Positions 3,566-17,694 of a DNA stretch of 33,769 nucleotides are shown piece after piece. This DNA is from Candidatus Peribacteria bacterium RIFCSPHIGHO2_01_FULL_55_13 (lineage in GTDB: Bacteria; Patescibacteriota; Gracilibacteria; Peribacterales; Peribacteraceae): positions 1 to 33,769 of the forward strand of contig MFXS01000010.1 of NCBI GenBank assembly GCA_001788925.1. The letters run 5' to 3'. A program made the position numbers and the translations under genes. Within the stretch, counting starts at the first letter, position 1. Each line of letters opens with the position of its first letter. The notes under the pieces are model-generated. The model made no database searches. It had not been told where the DNA came from and saw only the letters and a program-made list of their open reading frames with translations.

Positions 3566-6319
3566 ATGAAAAAGTATTCCATCGACGGTGAACGGCGCCT
3601 GATTGCTCATCAGCAAGGCGCGGAGCCAAACCGCCCAAAGTACGTGCCGCCAGAGGAAGTGAGGCAGTCAGGAGGAGAGGTGTCGAAGGATGAGAGCGAA
3701 CTCGCTCGAGAATTTTTTGAGGCTGGCAGGAAAGAAGTTGAAGATATCAGGCTGCGCTGGCCAACTCTGACCAAAGATCAGCAAGAAACATTCAAGGAAC
3801 TGGAGGAAAATTATAAAAACAATGTTCTCAAGAAATTCTACGAGTTGGACGTACGCAGGGAGGCAGCGGACGCACGTTCGCAAAAAGTCATCGCATCAGC
3901 TCATGCGGTCATCGAAGGTCTCAGAAATCTTTCTCAAGAGACAGCGCCTGTCACATTCGAGCGGCAGGTCATGGGAAACAAAGACCGAAAATCATTCAAC
4001 CCGGATTCCTTTTACAACGGACAGCTCATCGAAGATGCAAATACAATCGGCACCGTGGACCGTCCATACTATGCGGGCCTCCACGATCGGGAGAATGAGT
4101 TTCGCCGCAATTACGGACCAATTCTGAAGAATCTTGAAGAGCATAAAAGTTCCCTCAATCCGGCTGAGAGGGATCTTCTGACACAGGCTGCGCAAGAATG
4201 GGCACAATTTACCAACTGGGCCGACGGAATTTACAAAAGCAAAGCCACCATCGTTCCCAAGATCACGGCAAATGACAATTACGATCTGGCAGAAGCGGCC
4301 ATTGCGAAGGCCGAATTTGTGCTCGGTAGAACAAGCGACCGCTTCAAGGGAATGACGTACGATGACAGGATGGTGCAAAAACAGTGGGAACGGATTTCTT
4401 CGGATAATATCCGCGGGCTCAGTGCCACTCCCGGCACAGGACAGTTCCGCAATGAATCCTACATTGCAATCCCGAAGACCAATTTTCACTTCGTTGATGC
4501 AAAGGGCAATGTGGCCGAGGATTTTGTGTTGGGTAAAGACAGCAATCCCCGTGGACTCGATCGCGTTTTCTTCTCGAATGGACAAAGCAGTAAGCAATTG
4601 CCGAAGCTCGTTCTTAAATCATACCTGGGCAGGATGACATTTGAGCCTAAAAGAGACGTGAAGAATCCGCGCGAGATCCGTTACACACTTGTCGAGAAAG
4701 TGAACGCGCCTGATATTTTGGCACAAGCGTACAAACTGGCAGATGTTGTCGCGGGGCGCACCACGCTCTCCGCAGATGAGCGTGCGAACATGATCGAATC
4801 GATAACTACAAAGATCAATACAGAGTATGCCACCGCCGGTTTGGCAGTAGCAGAGACATGGAAAAGGGCCATTGGAGCTTTGCCGGAGAGCGAACGTACG
4901 GATCTGCAGAAACTTATCCATCTCAGTGCAGACGGGTCGAAATTGGAGGCTGATACAAAGCAGGCGGTCGTTCTCTGGAAAGCGGAGGAAAACCGGCCGT
5001 GGGATCCGGAGATCGATGGAAAAACGTACGTAGGTATGTCCGAGGCGCAAATCCGCGACGGTCTTGCCATAATGGCGCAGCAGGGGAATCCATCAGCAGA
5101 ACGGCAATTACGTCGATTTGATGCATATACTCAAAGTGTGGTGCATGCTCAAGATACGCTGGATGCAGAAGAGCGCGACCAGGAAAAATCCAGGAGTGAC
5201 CGAGAAGCGCTTGGAATACTTGCAGGAAAAATCGCAAGAGAAAAAGGAGCTCTCCTTGCTCCTTTTAAAGACGGTACACTTGCCGACAAAGTGAATACTC
5301 TGGGAGGCGTCGTCCGTTCTTTGAACGAAAGTATTGCCTCCTGGAATGCGAATCAGCACGTACAGAAAGAGAATGGCCCCTTCAAGACGCAAAAAGCCCG
5401 GACATTTGAAACGGAATTATCTGGACTTCAAGAGAGCATGAATGACGATCAGCGATTGCTGTTCAATGCGCTCGTGAGCGTACAAGACGGAAGGATTGTG
5501 CTTGGCGATGTGGAAGCGGAATTGGCACGACGCATGCCCCCTGTCATTGAAAATGGTCCTGGAGCGGTTCCAAGCGGTGAAGTAATGGTGTCCGTTAATT
5601 CACCGGCAGCCGTAACCGAATCCGTAGCACCCCCCGCCCCCGCGGTTACAGAAGCGCCTCAGCCTTCTCGTGAAACATGGTCCGAAGTGGCCACTGGAGA
5701 AGAGGTGAAAACCCTCAGTCAGAAAATCGTGATACCGGCGGCACTCACTGGATTCGATGAGAAAATATCTGGAGAGCTCATTGCGGCGAGTAACGAAGCG
5801 AATCATCAAATTATCACTGCACTGTTTGACGTCCAGGAATTGTCAAAAGGCGGTAATACATCCTTGGCTGTTGACAGCCTCCAGCGTGCCTATGCTGCAA
5901 CAATCCGGTGTATGCGATCTCTCGATACAGCGATCCCGCGCGCAGCAGAGGTGTATTCAACACGCTTTTTAGGAGTCCCCCTTCCGAGCCCCACTCGAAA
6001 GGGTCAGTTGAACCAACTTCTGAATACAGAGAAAGATGTCGATGCCAAACTCGGAGCGGTGTACACGCTCCTCAGGAAGATCGGTGGAGATAATGTCGTT
6101 GCAAACATGCGCGATCCTTCCACATTCGGTACACGGGATGTCCGTCTCACGATGATGAAGGCGTCTATGAGCGGCAACCGCGGAGAATCCCTCAAGATAT
6201 TTTCTCCCCAAACGTATGCGAATTTTTACGGAGTCACATTACCTGCTATTGAAATAGGGGAGGGAGGCACAAAGATCGTTGGGATAAAGCCACGCCGGGA
6301 TTCTTTCAACGGCAGATAG
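3566..6319 (+). CDS. Large hypothetical charged/helical protein, 917 aa
   Basis: Long uninterrupted ORF, Lys/Glu-rich; Pro/Ala/Val-rich linker around VNSPAAVTESVAPPAPAVTEAPQ; no recognised domain. Confidence 0.8.
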   Translation: MKKYSIDGERRLIAHQQGAEPNRPKYVPPEEVRQSGGEVSKDESELAREFFEAGRKEVEDIRLRWPTLTKDQQETFKELEENYKNNVLKKFYELDVRREAADARSQKVIASAHAVIEGLRNLSQETAPVTFERQVMGNKDRKSFNPDSFYNGQLIEDANTIGTVDRPYYAGLHDRENEFRRNYGPILKNLEEHKSSLNPAERDLLTQAAQEWAQFTNWADGIYKSKATIVPKITANDNYDLAEAAIAKAEFVLGRTSDRFKGMTYDDRMVQKQWERISSDNIRGLSATPGTGQFRNESYIAIPKTNFHFVDAKGNVAEDFVLGKDSNPRGLDRVFFSNGQSSKQLPKLVLKSYLGRMTFEPKRDVKNPREIRYTLVEKVNAPDILAQAYKLADVVAGRTTLSADERANMIESITTKINTEYATAGLAVAETWKRAIGALPESERTDLQKLIHLSADGSKLEADTKQAVVLWKAEENRPWDPEIDGKTYVGMSEAQIRDGLAIMAQQGNPSAERQLRRFDAYTQSVVHAQDTLDAEERDQEKSRSDREALGILAGKIAREKGALLAPFKDGTLADKVNTLGGVVRSLNESIASWNANQHVQKENGPFKTQKARTFETELSGLQESMNDDQRLLFNALVSVQDGRIVLGDVEAELARRMPPVIENGPGAVPSGEVMVSVNSPAAVTESVAPPAPAVTEAPQPSRETWSEVATGEEVKTLSQKIVIPAALTGFDEKISGELIAASNEANHQIITALFDVQELSKGGNTSLAVDSLQRAYAATIRCMRSLDTAIPRAAEVYSTRFLGVPLPSPTRKGQLNQLLNTEKDVDAKLGAVYTLLRKIGGDNVVANMRDPSTFGTRDVRLTMMKASMSGNRGESLKIFSPQTYANFYGVTLPAIEIGEGGTKIVGIKPRRDSFNGR

Positions 6320-11300: not shown

Positions 11301-11446
11301 TTGATGCAAGAAACTCCGGAAATTTGTCCGTATAATTAGAGCAACTCTCCACATTATATTTTTTTCCGTGGAGGGTCAGGTCGGCAGGAATCCCTGCCGC
11401 CCGTTTTAAGCTTCTTTTCCTGATGCCTTTCGCTAAAATACCATCC

Positions 11447-12490
11447 ATGTCGTCATCAGAACTTTTAACGAGAGGCGTAGAGGAAGTGGTCCCCAAAGCT
11501 CTTGCCGAGGAGAAACTGCAATCCGGCAAGAAGATGCGGCTCTACCTCGGCATCGATCCGACGGGGAGCAAATTGCATCTTGGTCACAGCGTTCCTCTCC
11601 GTAAGCTCCAGGCCTTTGCTGATGCCGGACATGAAGTGATTTTCCTTGTGGGAAGCTTCACGGCGATGATCGGGGATCCTTCGGGAAGAGACGCCCTCCG
11701 CGAGCCGCTGACAAAAGAGCAGGTCATCAAAAACTTCGAGACGTATAAAGAGCAGGCAGGAAAGGTCTTGGATTTTTCCAAGGTCACGATCCGCTACAAC
11801 CATGAATGGCTCGATAAACTTACTGGCGCCGACTTCCTCAAGCTCGGTAGCCACTTCACGGTCCAGCAGATGCTGAAGCGTGACATGTTCCGCAAACGCA
11901 TCAAAGAGGAGGCGGACATCGCTATCACCGAATTCCTCTACCCGATCATGGTGGGCTACGACTCGGTCATTCTCGATGTCGACTGTGAACTCGGCGGCTC
12001 GGACCAGCTCTTCAATATGCTCGCCGGCCGCACGCTCCAGCAGAAGCTCGGCAAGCGCGACAAGTTCGTGCTTACAACAAAACTGATCGAAGGCACAGAC
12101 GGCCGCAAAATGAGCAAGACCTACGACAACTGCATCTGGCTGGAGGACTCCGCAAAGGACATGTACGGAAAGACGCTTCGGATCGAAGACCGGCTAATCA
12201 CTACCTACATGGAGTGCTGCACGAATATCCCGATGGAGGAGATCGCCGCTATCAAGAAAAAAATGGTGAAGAAGGAAAATCCTATGACCTTCAAGAAGCA
12301 GCTCGCCGAGGAAATCGTCCGGATGTATCACGGCGAAGAAGCCGCGAAGAAAGCGGCTGAAGAATTCAGTCAAGGAAAATATGAAACTGAACATGACTCA
12401 ACAATTTTTGTTGATATTGTTAAAGAGGACGACTTAAATGAGGCTATGCAAATTAAGGCTAGGACTAGAAAAGGTAACCCAAACAAATAA
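11447..12490 (+). CDS. tyrS: Tyrosyl-tRNA synthetase catalytic body, lacking its native C-terminal S4 domain
   Basis: YLGIDPTGSKLHLGHSVPLRKLQ (HIGH-like), KMSKT; conserved TyrS sequence to KKAAEEF, then an unrelated AT-rich tail SQGKYETEHDSTIFVDIVKEDDLNEAMQIKARTRKGNPNK*. Confidence 0.9.
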   Translation: MSSSELLTRGVEEVVPKALAEEKLQSGKKMRLYLGIDPTGSKLHLGHSVPLRKLQAFADAGHEVIFLVGSFTAMIGDPSGRDALREPLTKEQVIKNFETYKEQAGKVLDFSKVTIRYNHEWLDKLTGADFLKLGSHFTVQQMLKRDMFRKRIKEEADIAITEFLYPIMVGYDSVILDVDCELGGSDQLFNMLAGRTLQQKLGKRDKFVLTTKLIEGTDGRKMSKTYDNCIWLEDSAKDMYGKTLRIEDRLITTYMECCTNIPMEEIAAIKKKMVKKENPMTFKKQLAEEIVRMYHGEEAAKKAAEEFSQGKYETEHDSTIFVDIVKEDDLNEAMQIKARTRKGNPNK

Positions 12491-13266
12491 TGGAACTTAT
12501 TCCCTTTAAAAACTGGTCGGGCGAAGAGCTCAAGACATGGAGGCAAGAGGCATCAAAAATAGATTCTTCCAAAGACATCACCGTTGTTGATGTTATGGTT
12601 CACAGCAAATTAATCCCCTCAAAGAGCCAAGCAAGAAAACTTATTGATCAAAAAGGAGTAAGGCTAAATGGAAAACTAGTAACAGCCCATGATGCAATTA
12701 TTGAGTTAGGAGAACTTAAAGTTGGAAAACTCAAAGTGTTTTCATTGGGACATTATTTGAAACTACATATCATGTGTTCAAGTGGGGGTACTGCATCTGT
12801 AGATTTATCCCCGCTATTTCAGAGCAAAAAGATTGAAGCTATTGCCGACGCTCTTAGAAGTACTGCTTTCTTTATGGAAAGAAAAGCATATCTCAAAATT
12901 CCTGTTCAACTTTCAGATGAAAGAATTCTTTCAGATCATTTCAAGAAATTATTGCTATCAGGCTTAATGAATTATGTAGAGCGAGAAAACGGTATAATTG
13001 AAATAGATGTTTATATGGATGAATATATGAAGGATTTAGACGAAATTATAAAATATGTGAAATATAGAGATATTGCTGTCGAATTAATAAAGAATCAAAA
13101 AAAGAAGGACGGCATTACATGGAATCTAGAATGCCCAAAATGTAAAAAAAGTACTCTCAATGGCGCATATAACATTATTCTAGGTGGTAATCCTGAAGAA
13201 AAATATAACGTAAATGGTTCGTGCCAAAACTATTCTTGTAGCTTTAAATTTAATGAACTTGCATAA
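12490..13266 (+). CDS. S4-domain protein with C-terminal Cys4 zinc-ribbon-like motif, unknown function
   Basis: TAATG overlap with tyrS stop; S4-like [33 protein letters not shown]...[15 protein letters not shown]...CQNYSC near C-terminus; AT-rich. Confidence 0.75.
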
Positions 13267-13273
13267 CCAAAAA

Positions 13274-13876
13274 ATGCGAATATTTTCTGCTGTCATAATC
13301 CCTCTTCTCCTCGCAGCCTGCCAGCCAGTGCTTCCCGTTGCGACGGACCAAACTTCTTCATCTACTTCTTCTGAGGAGAAGACACAATCCGCTGCATCGG
13401 TGCCATCAATTTGGAATGAATCTGCAGCCTATATCAAACCCTCCGACTCCGAACTCCGCGACCGCCTGACTCTCGTACAATTCGACGTCACCCAGCGCGA
13501 CGGAACCGAGCCGCCGTATCGTAATACGTACTGGGACAATCATGAGGAGGGGATTTATGTGGATATCGTTTCCGGCGAGCCGCTTTTTAGTTCCCAGGAC
13601 AAATACGAATCCGGGACGGGCTGGCCGAGCTTCACGAAGCCGCTGGAGCCGGGAAACATCGTCACGCACGAAGATGATCAGCTTCTCTACACACGCATCG
13701 AAGTCCGAAGCCGGCTGGGAGACAGTCATCTGGGACATGTCTTTGATGACGGCCCGGAGCCGCTGGGGCTGCGGTACTGCATGAATTCGGCGGCGTTGCG
13801 ATTCATTCCCCGCGACCGATTGGAGGCCGAGGGATACGGACAGTACATTGACCTCTTCCCAAGAAGCACACGATGA
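13274..13876 (+). CDS. msrB: Peptide methionine-(R)-S-oxide reductase MsrB, predicted lipoprotein
   Basis: Lipobox-like [57 protein letters not shown] extends to 13214. Confidence 0.93.
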
Positions 13877-14139
13877 AAAACTCCTTCTGGCTGGCGCGCA
13901 TGATCGGCTCGGGACTGGCACATGTTCAGCACGCAATCGATGAGGCTGCGGATACGGGATTTCGCATGCTCCGAAAAGCCGGGACGAAGACGGAATCCGT
14001 GCCCAAGCCCGAAAAGTCCAGGGTGCTTGGCACCCTTAAGCGCACCGGAAAAAGCACTCTGCGCTTCCTCGGCGAAACGGGGGAGTCGTACTATCAAAAA
14101 TACGACGATCTCAAAAACAGGAAGAAGGGATCCTCTTAG
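13873..14139 (+). CDS. Small hypothetical protein, 88 aa
   Basis: ATGA overlap with msrB stop; [33 protein letters not shown]... Confidence 0.55.
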
Positions 14140-14208
14140 GAAACGGCCACTCCGAGAAAGTACGGCGCGCTTGCCGCGGAATTCACCAAAGTATTCACAG
14201 ACAAAGAA

Positions 14209-14424
14209 ATGCCTTCGGATATTCCCGAAGTAAAAGCCAAAAAAGGGGAGCTACTTCTGGGTCTGCTGATGCGCGAAAAATTGATCACTTCAAAATCCGA
14301 CGGACGAAGATTGCTTGAACAGAAGGGGATTCACCTGAACGACAAAGCAGTGACGGATGTGAATGCGGCTGCTGTGCCGGGGATTTATAAAGTGGGGAAG
14401 AGGAAGTTTGTACGTATTGTATAG
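14209..14424 (+). CDS. Orphan S4 domain = displaced native C-terminus of TyrS
   Basis: In-frame upstream sequence AAEFTKVFTDKE then MPSDIPEVKAKKGELLLGLLMREKLITSKSDGRRLLEQKGIHLNDKAVTD...IYKVGKRKFVRIV, typical of TyrS C-terminal region; may be expressed alone or be a remnant. Confidence 0.7.
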   Translation: MPSDIPEVKAKKGELLLGLLMREKLITSKSDGRRLLEQKGIHLNDKAVTDVNAAAVPGIYKVGKRKFVRIV

Positions 14425-14446
14425 ACTTGCGTCTTTCATTGTTAAA

Positions 14447-14486: not shown

Positions 14487-14849
14487 CTAGCAGGCGACGA
14501 TCTTTGACGTCGTACGCGTCTGCAGGTGCGACGTTCCCGGAGCGACGAAATTCGTCTGGGAATACACGGAACACGTTCCGTTAGCATTGCGGACAACGTG
14601 CGAGTTGTTGTTGTACGCACCGCCGTTCACACCTGCGCCCTGACCGTGGTGGATGCAACCGTGACCTTGCGCGCAGTTTGTACGGCCAATGGAGTAGCCG
14701 CGGTTGCCGTTTACAACGTGACCGGCGCCGGCATTGTTGCCATTATTGTAGATGTAGCCTCTGGCGGCCGCAGCGTCGGCAACGCCCGTGCTCATGACAA
14801 AGAAGGCCGTTGCGACACTCGCCGATGCGAGAATTTTGTGAAGTAACAT
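14487..14849 (-). CDS. Small secreted Asn/Gly-rich protein
   Basis: Signal peptide MLLHKILASASVATAFFVMSTGVADAAAA; mature GYIYNNGNNAGAGHVVNGNRGYSIGRTNCAQGHGC...; ORF extends to 14885. Confidence 0.65.
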   Translation of the reverse strand: MLLHKILASASVATAFFVMSTGVADAAAARGYIYNNGNNAGAGHVVNGNRGYSIGRTNCAQGHGCIHHGQGAGVNGGAYNNNSHVVRNANGTCSVYSQTNFVAPGTSHLQTRTTSKIVAC

Positions 14850-15038
14850 AGAAGAAAAGGGGGAAGAGGGAAATAAAAGACCCATCGGGCCTCAGCAAGG
14901 AGACGGCTACTTCTCTGTATTCTTACACAACAGGAACTAACGCGTAGCGTTTCATCAAAGCACCTGTTCGCACGGATCAGCGCAGCTACTCAGGGTGATC
15001 AATTGTCGAGTGTACGAACGTACAACCCCTTTCCAAGC

Positions 15039-15134
15039 TTATATCCCCACCCAGTACGGCACGCTTGCTGCGGCGCTCACGAGGAGAACCGAGAGGAGGA
15101 ATGCGTAGCCGAGGGAGCGTGTATCGCGGGTCAT
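15039..15134 (-). CDS. Candidate 31-aa single-TM microprotein
   Basis: MTRDTRSLGYAFLLSVLLVSAAASVPYWVGI*; hydrophobic segment; no clear SD. Confidence 0.35.
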   Translation of the reverse strand: MTRDTRSLGYAFLLSVLLVSAAASVPYWVGI

Positions 15135-15558: not shown

Positions 15559-15861
15559 ATGCAGAAGTCCCCTGTCCCCACTGAACTCATCGAGGAAATG
15601 ATCTACCTGCTGCGGGGAAGGAAAGTGTTGCTCGATTTCGACCTTGCGGTGCTCTACGGAGTCCCGACATCTCGTCTCAATGAGCAAGTGAAACGTAACA
15701 TTGAACGCTTTCCTGAGGATTTTCTCTTTCGTCTGACACAGGAGGAACACCTGCACTTGATATCGCAAAATGCGATATCAAAACACGGTGGCCGTCGGAA
15801 ACTTCCCTATGCTTTTACAGAGCAGGGCGTTGCGATGCTTTTTATAGTTACTTTGAATTGA
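15559..15861 (+). pseudogene. ORF6N-domain DNA-binding protein, truncated at 3' end by cassette insertion
   Basis: [49 protein letters not shown]...[18 protein letters not shown] then abrupt FIVTLN*. Confidence 0.75.
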
Positions 15862-16276
15862 ACTTACCATACATTTTAATTAGCTGCTGTAAAGTCTCAT
15901 TCATGGATCCCATCTGCAGGTTCTCCAATTCAATTTTTCTTTCCATTGATAGCGGAATTAAAGTTCGATTTTTAAATTGATCCGACCGCGTATTAAATCC
16001 ATTTTCTATTGCAAGCTTCTTCTTAATCCAATAAATCTCTCGCTGAAATAAAACTGACATATCATCAACTAGCTCCAGAATTCTAAATGTAATAACGGAG
16101 GGCGAATGTGTATTCCATGAATGCTGCAATAACTTGTTGATGTGATTATCTGCTGTCAGCTGTACCAAGTGATCGTGCAAACGACGAAAAACATGCTTGG
16201 AAGATCCGATGTACGATTCCTGAGTTGAGATATTCTGAATTTCATATATGCCTGCAATGTCTAAGCTGCTATTCAT
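15848..16276 (-). CDS. GIY-YIG nuclease-domain protein
   Basis: [36 protein letters not shown]; start overlaps the upstream gene stop (ATGAATAG); ORF extends to 16324. Confidence 0.8.
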
Positions 16277-16715
16277 GAGCGCGAATGGTGTTGTAAAATT
16301 CAATAAGATGATGAATTGATTCATCCATGGTTCCTAATTGCAGTGACTTTAAATTCTTTTTTACATCTGCATTAACCCCAATACCGGTTTTGATTCTTAG
16401 GGTTCTCTTATCATTGATATTTGCGTTATCGTCGATAATTTCACAGTTTGGGATTTTGCTTACCCAAGAACGGAGATGAGAAGATAAGTGATATTTATTT
16501 GATGTTAATTCTAAAATCGAAAAGCTAAAGGCCGTCGGTCCAAACACATTCCACTCCGACTGAAGTGAGACATTTTCATGTACACCTTTATTAAGAGACG
16601 CAATGTGCTTCAAGATCTTATTAGCAATACTTACAGAACCGCCAACGAATGATTTTGATGTTGCATCGCATTTGATTCCATAAATGCCTATGAGTCCACG
16701 TCGAGCGTTTTCCAT
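16269..16715 (-). CDS. Diverged GIY-YIG-like paralogue
   Basis: GLIGIYGIKCDATSKSFVGGSVSIANKILKHIASL; C-terminal motif LKSLQLGTMDESIHHLI matches [17 protein letters not shown] of the neighbouring ORF. Confidence 0.65.
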   Translation of the reverse strand: MENARRGLIGIYGIKCDATSKSFVGGSVSIANKILKHIASLNKGVHENVSLQSEWNVFGPTAFSFSILELTSNKYHLSSHLRSWVSKIPNCEIIDDNANINDKRTLRIKTGIGVNADVKKNLKSLQLGTMDESIHHLIEFYNTIRAHE

Positions 16716-16731
16716 TCTTTAAGTATACAAA

Positions 16732-17694
16732 CTATAAAACTTTTCCATGAAACTTTTTATGAACATCTTTTAATTGGGGATTTGTTACATGTGTATATAC
16801 CTGCGTTGTTCCCAAGTCTTTATGACCAAGTAATTCTTGAACTGATCGGAGATCAGCGCCGTTTCTAAGTAAGTCAGTAGCAAACGAATGGCGCAGCGTA
16901 TGCGGTGTAGGATGATTCATTAACCCTGCCAACTTGGCATACTTCACGACGATTCTATAAATTGAATTGCTTGATAATCTATATTTTTCACCAGGAGGTA
17001 GTTCCAGATTGGCTTTGTCGAATTTACTAATAAATAGTGGATAAAGGTGATCGAGTCGAACTGCTAAGTAGCTCTTCAGGGCTTCGACAGATTGGTCACT
17101 AACAAACACAACCCGGATCTTCCCCCTCTTACCGCGAACACTGATTTCACGGGTGATAAAATTAAGATCTGCGACATTAAGACTTCTGAGCTCCGCAAGA
17201 CGCAAACCTGTTGAAAAGAATAATTCTAGGATTGCTCTGTCTCTTTTACCAATCTTGGTGCTTGAATCTGGAGCATTTAAAAGAATTATAAGATCTTCTC
17301 GAAATAGAACCTTGACCTTCCGCTCTTCTTCCTTGAGACGAGTAATTCGATCTGGTGGATATACATTGAGTTCTTCCTCTCTCATCAAATATCGCAAGAA
17401 AGCACGAAGGATTGTCAAATGATGATTTTTTGTGCGGACTGCCAGCTGCTTTCCATGCCTCGTGATATGTGTATGAAGAGATGCTTTATACATGCGGATT
17501 GTTTGCTTGGAAAGCAGCAGCGGATCATCGACATCACAAAGAGCTGACAGCAGTTGTAATGATTCGCGGTAGGCCTTAATTGTTAAGGGTGATTTATTTT
17601 CCTCCGCCTGCAAAAATATTAAGTAGCGGTCAATGGCGTGGCCAAGGGGGGTTAACGTTGTCGCTTCAGCCGCTGTGGATGGTTTCGGTGACAT
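16732..17694 (-). CDS. Tyrosine recombinase, XerC/XerD type
   Basis: TGLRLAELRSL; HPTPHTLRHSFATDLLRNGADLRSVQELLGHKDLGTTQVYTHV (R, HxLRH, GH, Y); N-terminal SAM-like domain. Confidence 0.93.
   Translation of the reverse strand: MSPKPSTAAEATTLTPLGHAIDRYLIFLQAEENKSPLTIKAYRESLQLLSALCDVDDPLLLSKQTIRMYKASLHTHITRHGKQLAVRTKNHHLTILRAFLRYLMREEELNVYPPDRITRLKEEERKVKVLFREDLIILLNAPDSSTKIGKRDRAILELFFSTGLRLAELRSLNVADLNFITREISVRGKRGKIRVVFVSDQSVEALKSYLAVRLDHLYPLFISKFDKANLELPPGEKYRLSSNSIYRIVVKYAKLAGLMNHPTPHTLRHSFATDLLRNGADLRSVQELLGHKDLGTTQVYTHVTNPQLKDVHKKFHGKVL

Follow-up and report, generated by a model that had tools for sequence, protein, structure and literature searches.

Split aminoacyl-tRNA synthetases and helpers that bind tRNA in trans are exemplified by PylSn/PylSc, Arc1p and Trbp111. 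The tyrS locus described here resembles these systems in that catalysis and tRNA binding are predicted to reside on two different proteins, whereas the split is in this case an insertion seen in one species and has a mobile-element domain attached. When compared with bacterial TyrRS (TIGR00234, with PF22421 as its S4 domain), the catalytic half matches along its length and the S4 domain of the adjacent gene is also of TyrRS type; in contrast to the bacterial enzyme, this S4 lies on a separate ORF together with an extra domain of ~170 residues, and the native S4 is displaced. S4 is an RNA-binding domain that is flexibly attached (PMC4275181). In most TyrRSs its removal lowers tRNA affinity and does not abolish activation, one enzyme being inactivated (PMC6310243), and since S4 loss often just lowers tRNA affinity, the truncated TyrS described here might suffice.

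The window, i.e. the whole stretch of 33,769 nucleotides that was analysed, contains the features listed below, where S4X denotes the ORF starting at the tyrS stop, X its second domain, and G001, G003 and G004 the related species of the same genus used for comparison. No tRNA or Rfam features were found in the window.

11423-12490, plus strand: annotated tyrS ORF, S4 domain absent
11423..12368, plus strand: native part of tyrS, catalytic and helical domains without S4 (profiles; G003 DNA alignment)
12369..12487, plus strand: foreign, AT-rich tail that continues the tyrS frame (SQGKYETEHDSTIF...KGNPNK), GC3 0.27 vs 0.70
12478..12484, plus strand: slippery heptamer C CCA AAC (no other X XXY YYZ occurs in the tyrS frame)
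12488..12492, plus strand: TAATG overlap of the tyrS stop with the S4X start
12490..13266, plus strand: S4X ORF, 258 aa (ORF list, profile matches)
12553..12747, plus strand: TyrRS-type S4 domain of S4X, residues 22-86 (profiles, best matches)
12766..13254, plus strand: X domain, about residues 93-255 (homologues; AlphaFold)
13132..13239, plus strand: zinc ribbon of S4X, C215/C218...C245/C250 (alignment)
13274..13876, plus strand: msrB, SelR domain (profile match; slot shared with G001 and G003; translation may begin earlier, at 13214)
13873..14139, plus strand: orf88, 88 aa, conserved msrB neighbour (G001/G003 comparison)
14136..14178, minus strand: d1, orphan 3' fragment of a small membrane-protein gene, G001/G003 type (PYFLG...)
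14180..14421, plus strand: displaced native S4 end of tyrS, frame intact (S4X search, G003 comparison)
14487..14885, minus strand: ORF of 132 aa after the native S4 (ORF list)
15039..15134, minus strand: d2, intact small membrane-protein gene (MTRDTRSLGYAFLLSVLLVSAAASVPYWVGI), G004 type (PYWVGI)

TyrS retains the class Ic catalytic core (tRNA-synt_1b, 7.6e-77; tyrS, 2.7e-98) with its HLGH and KMSK motifs, and TIGR00234 covers only model positions 8-326 of 406. No C-terminal S4 was found on the TyrS chain; S4 sits in the next frame. The alignment of tyrS DNA with G003, at 81% identity, ends at 12368. The truncation of TyrS proposed by the first-pass annotation was therefore borne out, a segment of a foreign locus interrupting the gene and the model match ending at 326/406. 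A genome-wide search (1.17 Mb, 43 contigs, 97.7% complete) returned one tyrS only, and the sole other tyrS-like match, 25% identical, looks like TrpS.

The S4 of S4X was recognised by Pfam S4 (PF01479; E 3.6e-8, 33.5 bits, cut-off 22.8), by the TyrRS-specific SYY_C-terminal family PF22421 (E 6.4e-8, 32.8 bits, cut-off 27) and by the C-terminus of the TIGR00234 tyrS model (E 2.5e-8), which confirms the TyrS-like S4 that had been proposed for the N-terminus. Its best matches are the TyrS S4 domains of same-family genomes, 48-56% identical; a distant foreign donor was considered and rejected, the best matches being these and no donor being found. The conserved strand KVGKRKF is altered to KVGKLKV. 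The ORF and its TAATG overlap onto tyrS also held (12488-12492 and 12490-13266), as did the claim that its composition is far more AT-rich than the flanks: GC is 0.38 in S4 and 0.32 in the rest, with GC3 of 0.33 and 0.25, compared with GC and GC3 of 0.53 and 0.70 in tyrS (11423-12364) and 0.56 and 0.61 in msrB, i.e. GC3 of 0.25-0.33 vs 0.6-0.7 in the neighbours. The AT-rich stretch starts at ~12369, within annotated tyrS, and takes in its last 40 codons.

Behind S4, the ~170 residues described as unfamiliar do form a real X domain, but they have relatives, a family of stand-alone HTH/zinc-ribbon proteins. Homologues of X occur in three genomes of the class (E 1.4e-12, 2.3e-11 and 3.5e-9) and in eight public contigs, partly from the same genomes, with 29-36% identity over the full domain; for the family as a whole, identity over X is 26-36%. 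Their hosts are mainly CPR (Peregrinibacteria, Gracilibacteria, Yanofskybacteria, Paceibacterota, Kerfeldbacteria), with one Acidobacteriota bin and one further bacterium. Family members have 173-196 aa and carry, besides an SSGG-like motif at the N-terminus, an HTH-like stretch and a zinc ribbon. The domain of S4X shares with them scattered S, G, Y and N residues and the cysteines 215, 218, 245 and 250, which are invariant across all 9 aligned sequences and correspond to the CPKC...CQNYSC noticed at first. S4X differs from the family by its N-terminal S4 and by 7 residues deleted from the HTH (SSRDIAxxYGxxRQYWEKLL), which is thus not intact, as well as by its place in tyrS, away from hsdM or phage genes. 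AlphaFold gave a strand-helix and a winged-HTH-like part, together with a zinc ribbon and one long helix (pLDDT 73), a model limited by the small size of its alignment of 9 sequences. A PDB fold search with it returned nothing significant, with weak winged-helix and TFIIS/RPA12-type zinc-ribbon resemblances alone. T4 baseplate gp26 (PF12322) was rejected for X, since it scored 17.8 bits against a gathering threshold of 24.5 and was not among the matches listed for the three X homologues scanned.

The neighbours of X-family genes were named by eye from translations, without recourse to family profiles. Among them, hsdM is directly adjacent in L050 and L051; serine recombinases occur in L061 and L064, genes of ParB/N6-methylase and terminase-like type in L064 and L065, and a KAP-type P-loop NTPase in L062. 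In PADLOC, family members weakly matched PDC-M06B and mad1 (best E 8e-4 and 3e-3) and S4X itself matched neither; a link to these defence-associated proteins is only suggestive. No match for a phage, plasmid or IMG/VR origin was obtained. By its sequence, X is a degenerate member of a rare mobile-element-associated HTH/zinc-ribbon family, which supports the earlier view of S4X as element-encoded. No S4-X fusion was found in 353 genomes of the class, in 380 genomes sampled across the phylum or in the public contigs searched, and no X homologue beside tyrS in the genomes searched. By the refuting outcome that the first-pass annotation had named, this tells half against its reading: in the genomes searched, relatives of the 160-residue domain are never tyrS-linked, while the S4 is clearly of TyrS type.

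At the junction, C CCA AAC lies after the stop of the -1 frame (12475) and before that of tyrS (12488). A -1 shift must fall in this 13-nt interval, and the heptamer is expected inside it at ~1.3% by base composition. No stimulatory RNA structure for -1 frameshifting was found at the tyrS/S4X overlap; of the features of a programmed frameshift, the overlap has the in-frame heptamer and not the structure. The AT-rich tail was also considered as a foreign TyrRS linker and rejected, its linker profile score being not above shuffles (p 0.13), whereas the native linker scored far above them. The S4X N-terminus together with the tail showed no TyrRS-linker likeness either. Given this lack, S4X is more likely to be a gene of its own, with S4 and X joined, than one half of a foreign TyrS that was split.

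Since the sole tyrS lacks S4, its catalytic half should need an S4 supplied in trans, by -1 frameshift fusion or by the displaced native S4. We propose that S4X, translated after stop/restart at the TAATG of the message that it shares with tyrS, would provide the S4 contact for tRNA-Tyr to the S4-less TyrS. A TyrS-S4X fusion arising where ribosomes slip into the -1 frame on C CCA AAC might be an alternative or partial route, and the displaced native S4 may act as an alternative or additional donor. In favour of the anatomy and of S4X acting in trans, taken together, we counted the native S4 lying downstream, the intact tyrS of G001, G003 and G004, the gene order shared with G001 and G003, the two alleles of the small membrane gene, the break and resumption of native tyrS DNA at one codon, the single tyrS, the sharp GC3 change, the placement of the heptamer and TAATG, the intact TyrRS-type S4 and the mobile context of X; against it, the absence of a TyrRS-like linker, the KVGKLKV strand change, the lack of a frameshift structure, the often mild effect of S4 loss in other TyrRSs, the restriction to one MAG and the lack of an S4-fused X relative anywhere searched. 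On this balance, the in-trans role together with the anatomy described is given slightly less than an even chance of being right. It is more doubtful that an essential TyrRS would work in two separate chains, or through a frameshift fusion made at a low level, with its S4 supplied by an HTH/zinc-ribbon protein derived from a mobile element. The overall interpretation of the first-pass annotation is in part supported, as regards the truncated TyrS and the element-encoded gene.

A different donor would be the displaced native S4 (14180-14421), acting as the working tRNA-binding part, S4X being a passenger with a role of its own. A search of the genome with S4X revealed this second TyrS-type S4 at 14227-14442, overlooked in the first pass: it is the native 3' end of tyrS (AEFTKVFTDKEMPSDIPEV...KVGKRKFVRIV), behind msrB and orf88, ~1.7 kb downstream of the cut tyrS. 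No stop interrupts the remnant, which is 87.5% identical in amino acids to the S4 of the intact G003 tyrS and shows dN 0.09 / dS 1.6, similar to the catalytic part; however, an intact frame is also expected after a recent event, and Gly has replaced a conserved Asp (GELLLGLLM). Translation could start from a possible ATG at KE-MPSDIPEV or proceed by read-through of the orf88 TAG, but no clear start site or ribosome-binding site was found for 14180-14421. Altogether we consider it improbable that the displaced S4 is the working part. The native S4 lies in frame with orf88 across that stop (14137-14421), and read-through would fuse both. The 132-aa ORF that follows it (14487..14885) had no relatives in the 58 relatives searched.

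It is comparably improbable that TyrS works, poorly or well, without S4 and that S4X is an unrelated mobile-element protein whose S4 binds another RNA. The mobile context of the X family, the lack of linker homology of S4X to TyrRS and the activation kept at lowered tRNA affinity by most TyrRSs after S4 deletion (PMC6310243) would fit with it, but the S4 of S4X is of TyrRS type and the ORF begins exactly at the tyrS stop.

Comparison with related species indicates how S4X may have come to follow the cut tyrS. In G001 and G003, rluD precedes a tyrS that is intact, after which come a slot gene rich in AT, msrB, orf88 and, on the opposite strand, a gene for a membrane protein of 34 aa; in G004, an intact tyrS is followed by a short ORF and the membrane-protein gene, msrB and orf88 being absent between, and no tyrS match was found in G002, of the same genus. 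In the window, a segment of ~1.8 kb from 12369 to ~14178 (tail, S4X, msrB, orf88 and d1) lies inside tyrS, between the helical domain and the S4 domain, and is syntenic with the region downstream of tyrS in related species. Native tyrS DNA halts at 12368 and resumes at ~14173-14180 in the codon where it had left off, and both edges carry GAATTCA. Since the segment ends with the orphan d1 while an intact d2 stands at 15039-15134, it appears to derive from a different version of this locus. We infer that the insertion arose by recombination with such a version and landed inside tyrS at GAATTCA: horizontal recombination would have used short shared sequence, GAATTCA on the left and, as proposed here, the GC-rich GCYGCGG on the right. 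The coinciding edges favour insertion into tyrS; pairing by homology would better account for the syntenic position. The locus is known from one genome (one MAG), a draft of 43 contigs in which both versions of the locus are recognisable, but a chimera or strain mixture joined in metagenome assembly is very improbable, as the sequence shared, <= ~7 nt at the right junction and GAATTCA at the left, is too short to explain a join by k-mers, and genome contamination is estimated at 0.16%.

The small membrane protein (31-34 aa, single-TM-like), whose gene d2 lies on the minus strand, is conserved in all four species compared, with a longer start in G004. Elsewhere in the window, AT-rich ORFs at 15848-16715, one with a GIY-YIG domain and one similar-looking partner, adjoin a XerC-like integrase (16732-17694); both are present in G001 and were not seen in G003 and G004. 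Within the family, an AT-rich ORF has its start at -15 to 0 relative to the stop of tyrS (ATGA/TAATG) in 9 of ~55 tyrS loci (L084, L096, L117, L120, L123, L126, L127, L032 and L033, tyrS 3' ends counted alone), with GC of 0.26-0.40 vs 0.41-0.57 in tyrS. Most of these ORFs look like proteins with an N-terminal TM, an outside domain and a C-terminal TM, and have almost no mutual similarity. The G001 tyrS (L032, reverse complement ~4025-4294) has an in-frame AT-rich stretch of 90 codons replacing RIKEEADIAITE in the catalytic domain, with a CPNC...CDSC zinc ribbon and a GC of 0.38 vs 0.49/0.52.

Even without a role for S4X, this locus points to the tyrS 3' end as a spot of repeated AT-rich gene exchange in this family. 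If S4X does act in trans, this would be a natural in-trans TyrRS, in which tRNA-Tyr charging is tied to an acquired gene, and one recombination event would have made a core translation enzyme dependent on that gene. As the native S4 has stayed close by, the succession of events by which a synthetase is split would then be directly testable.
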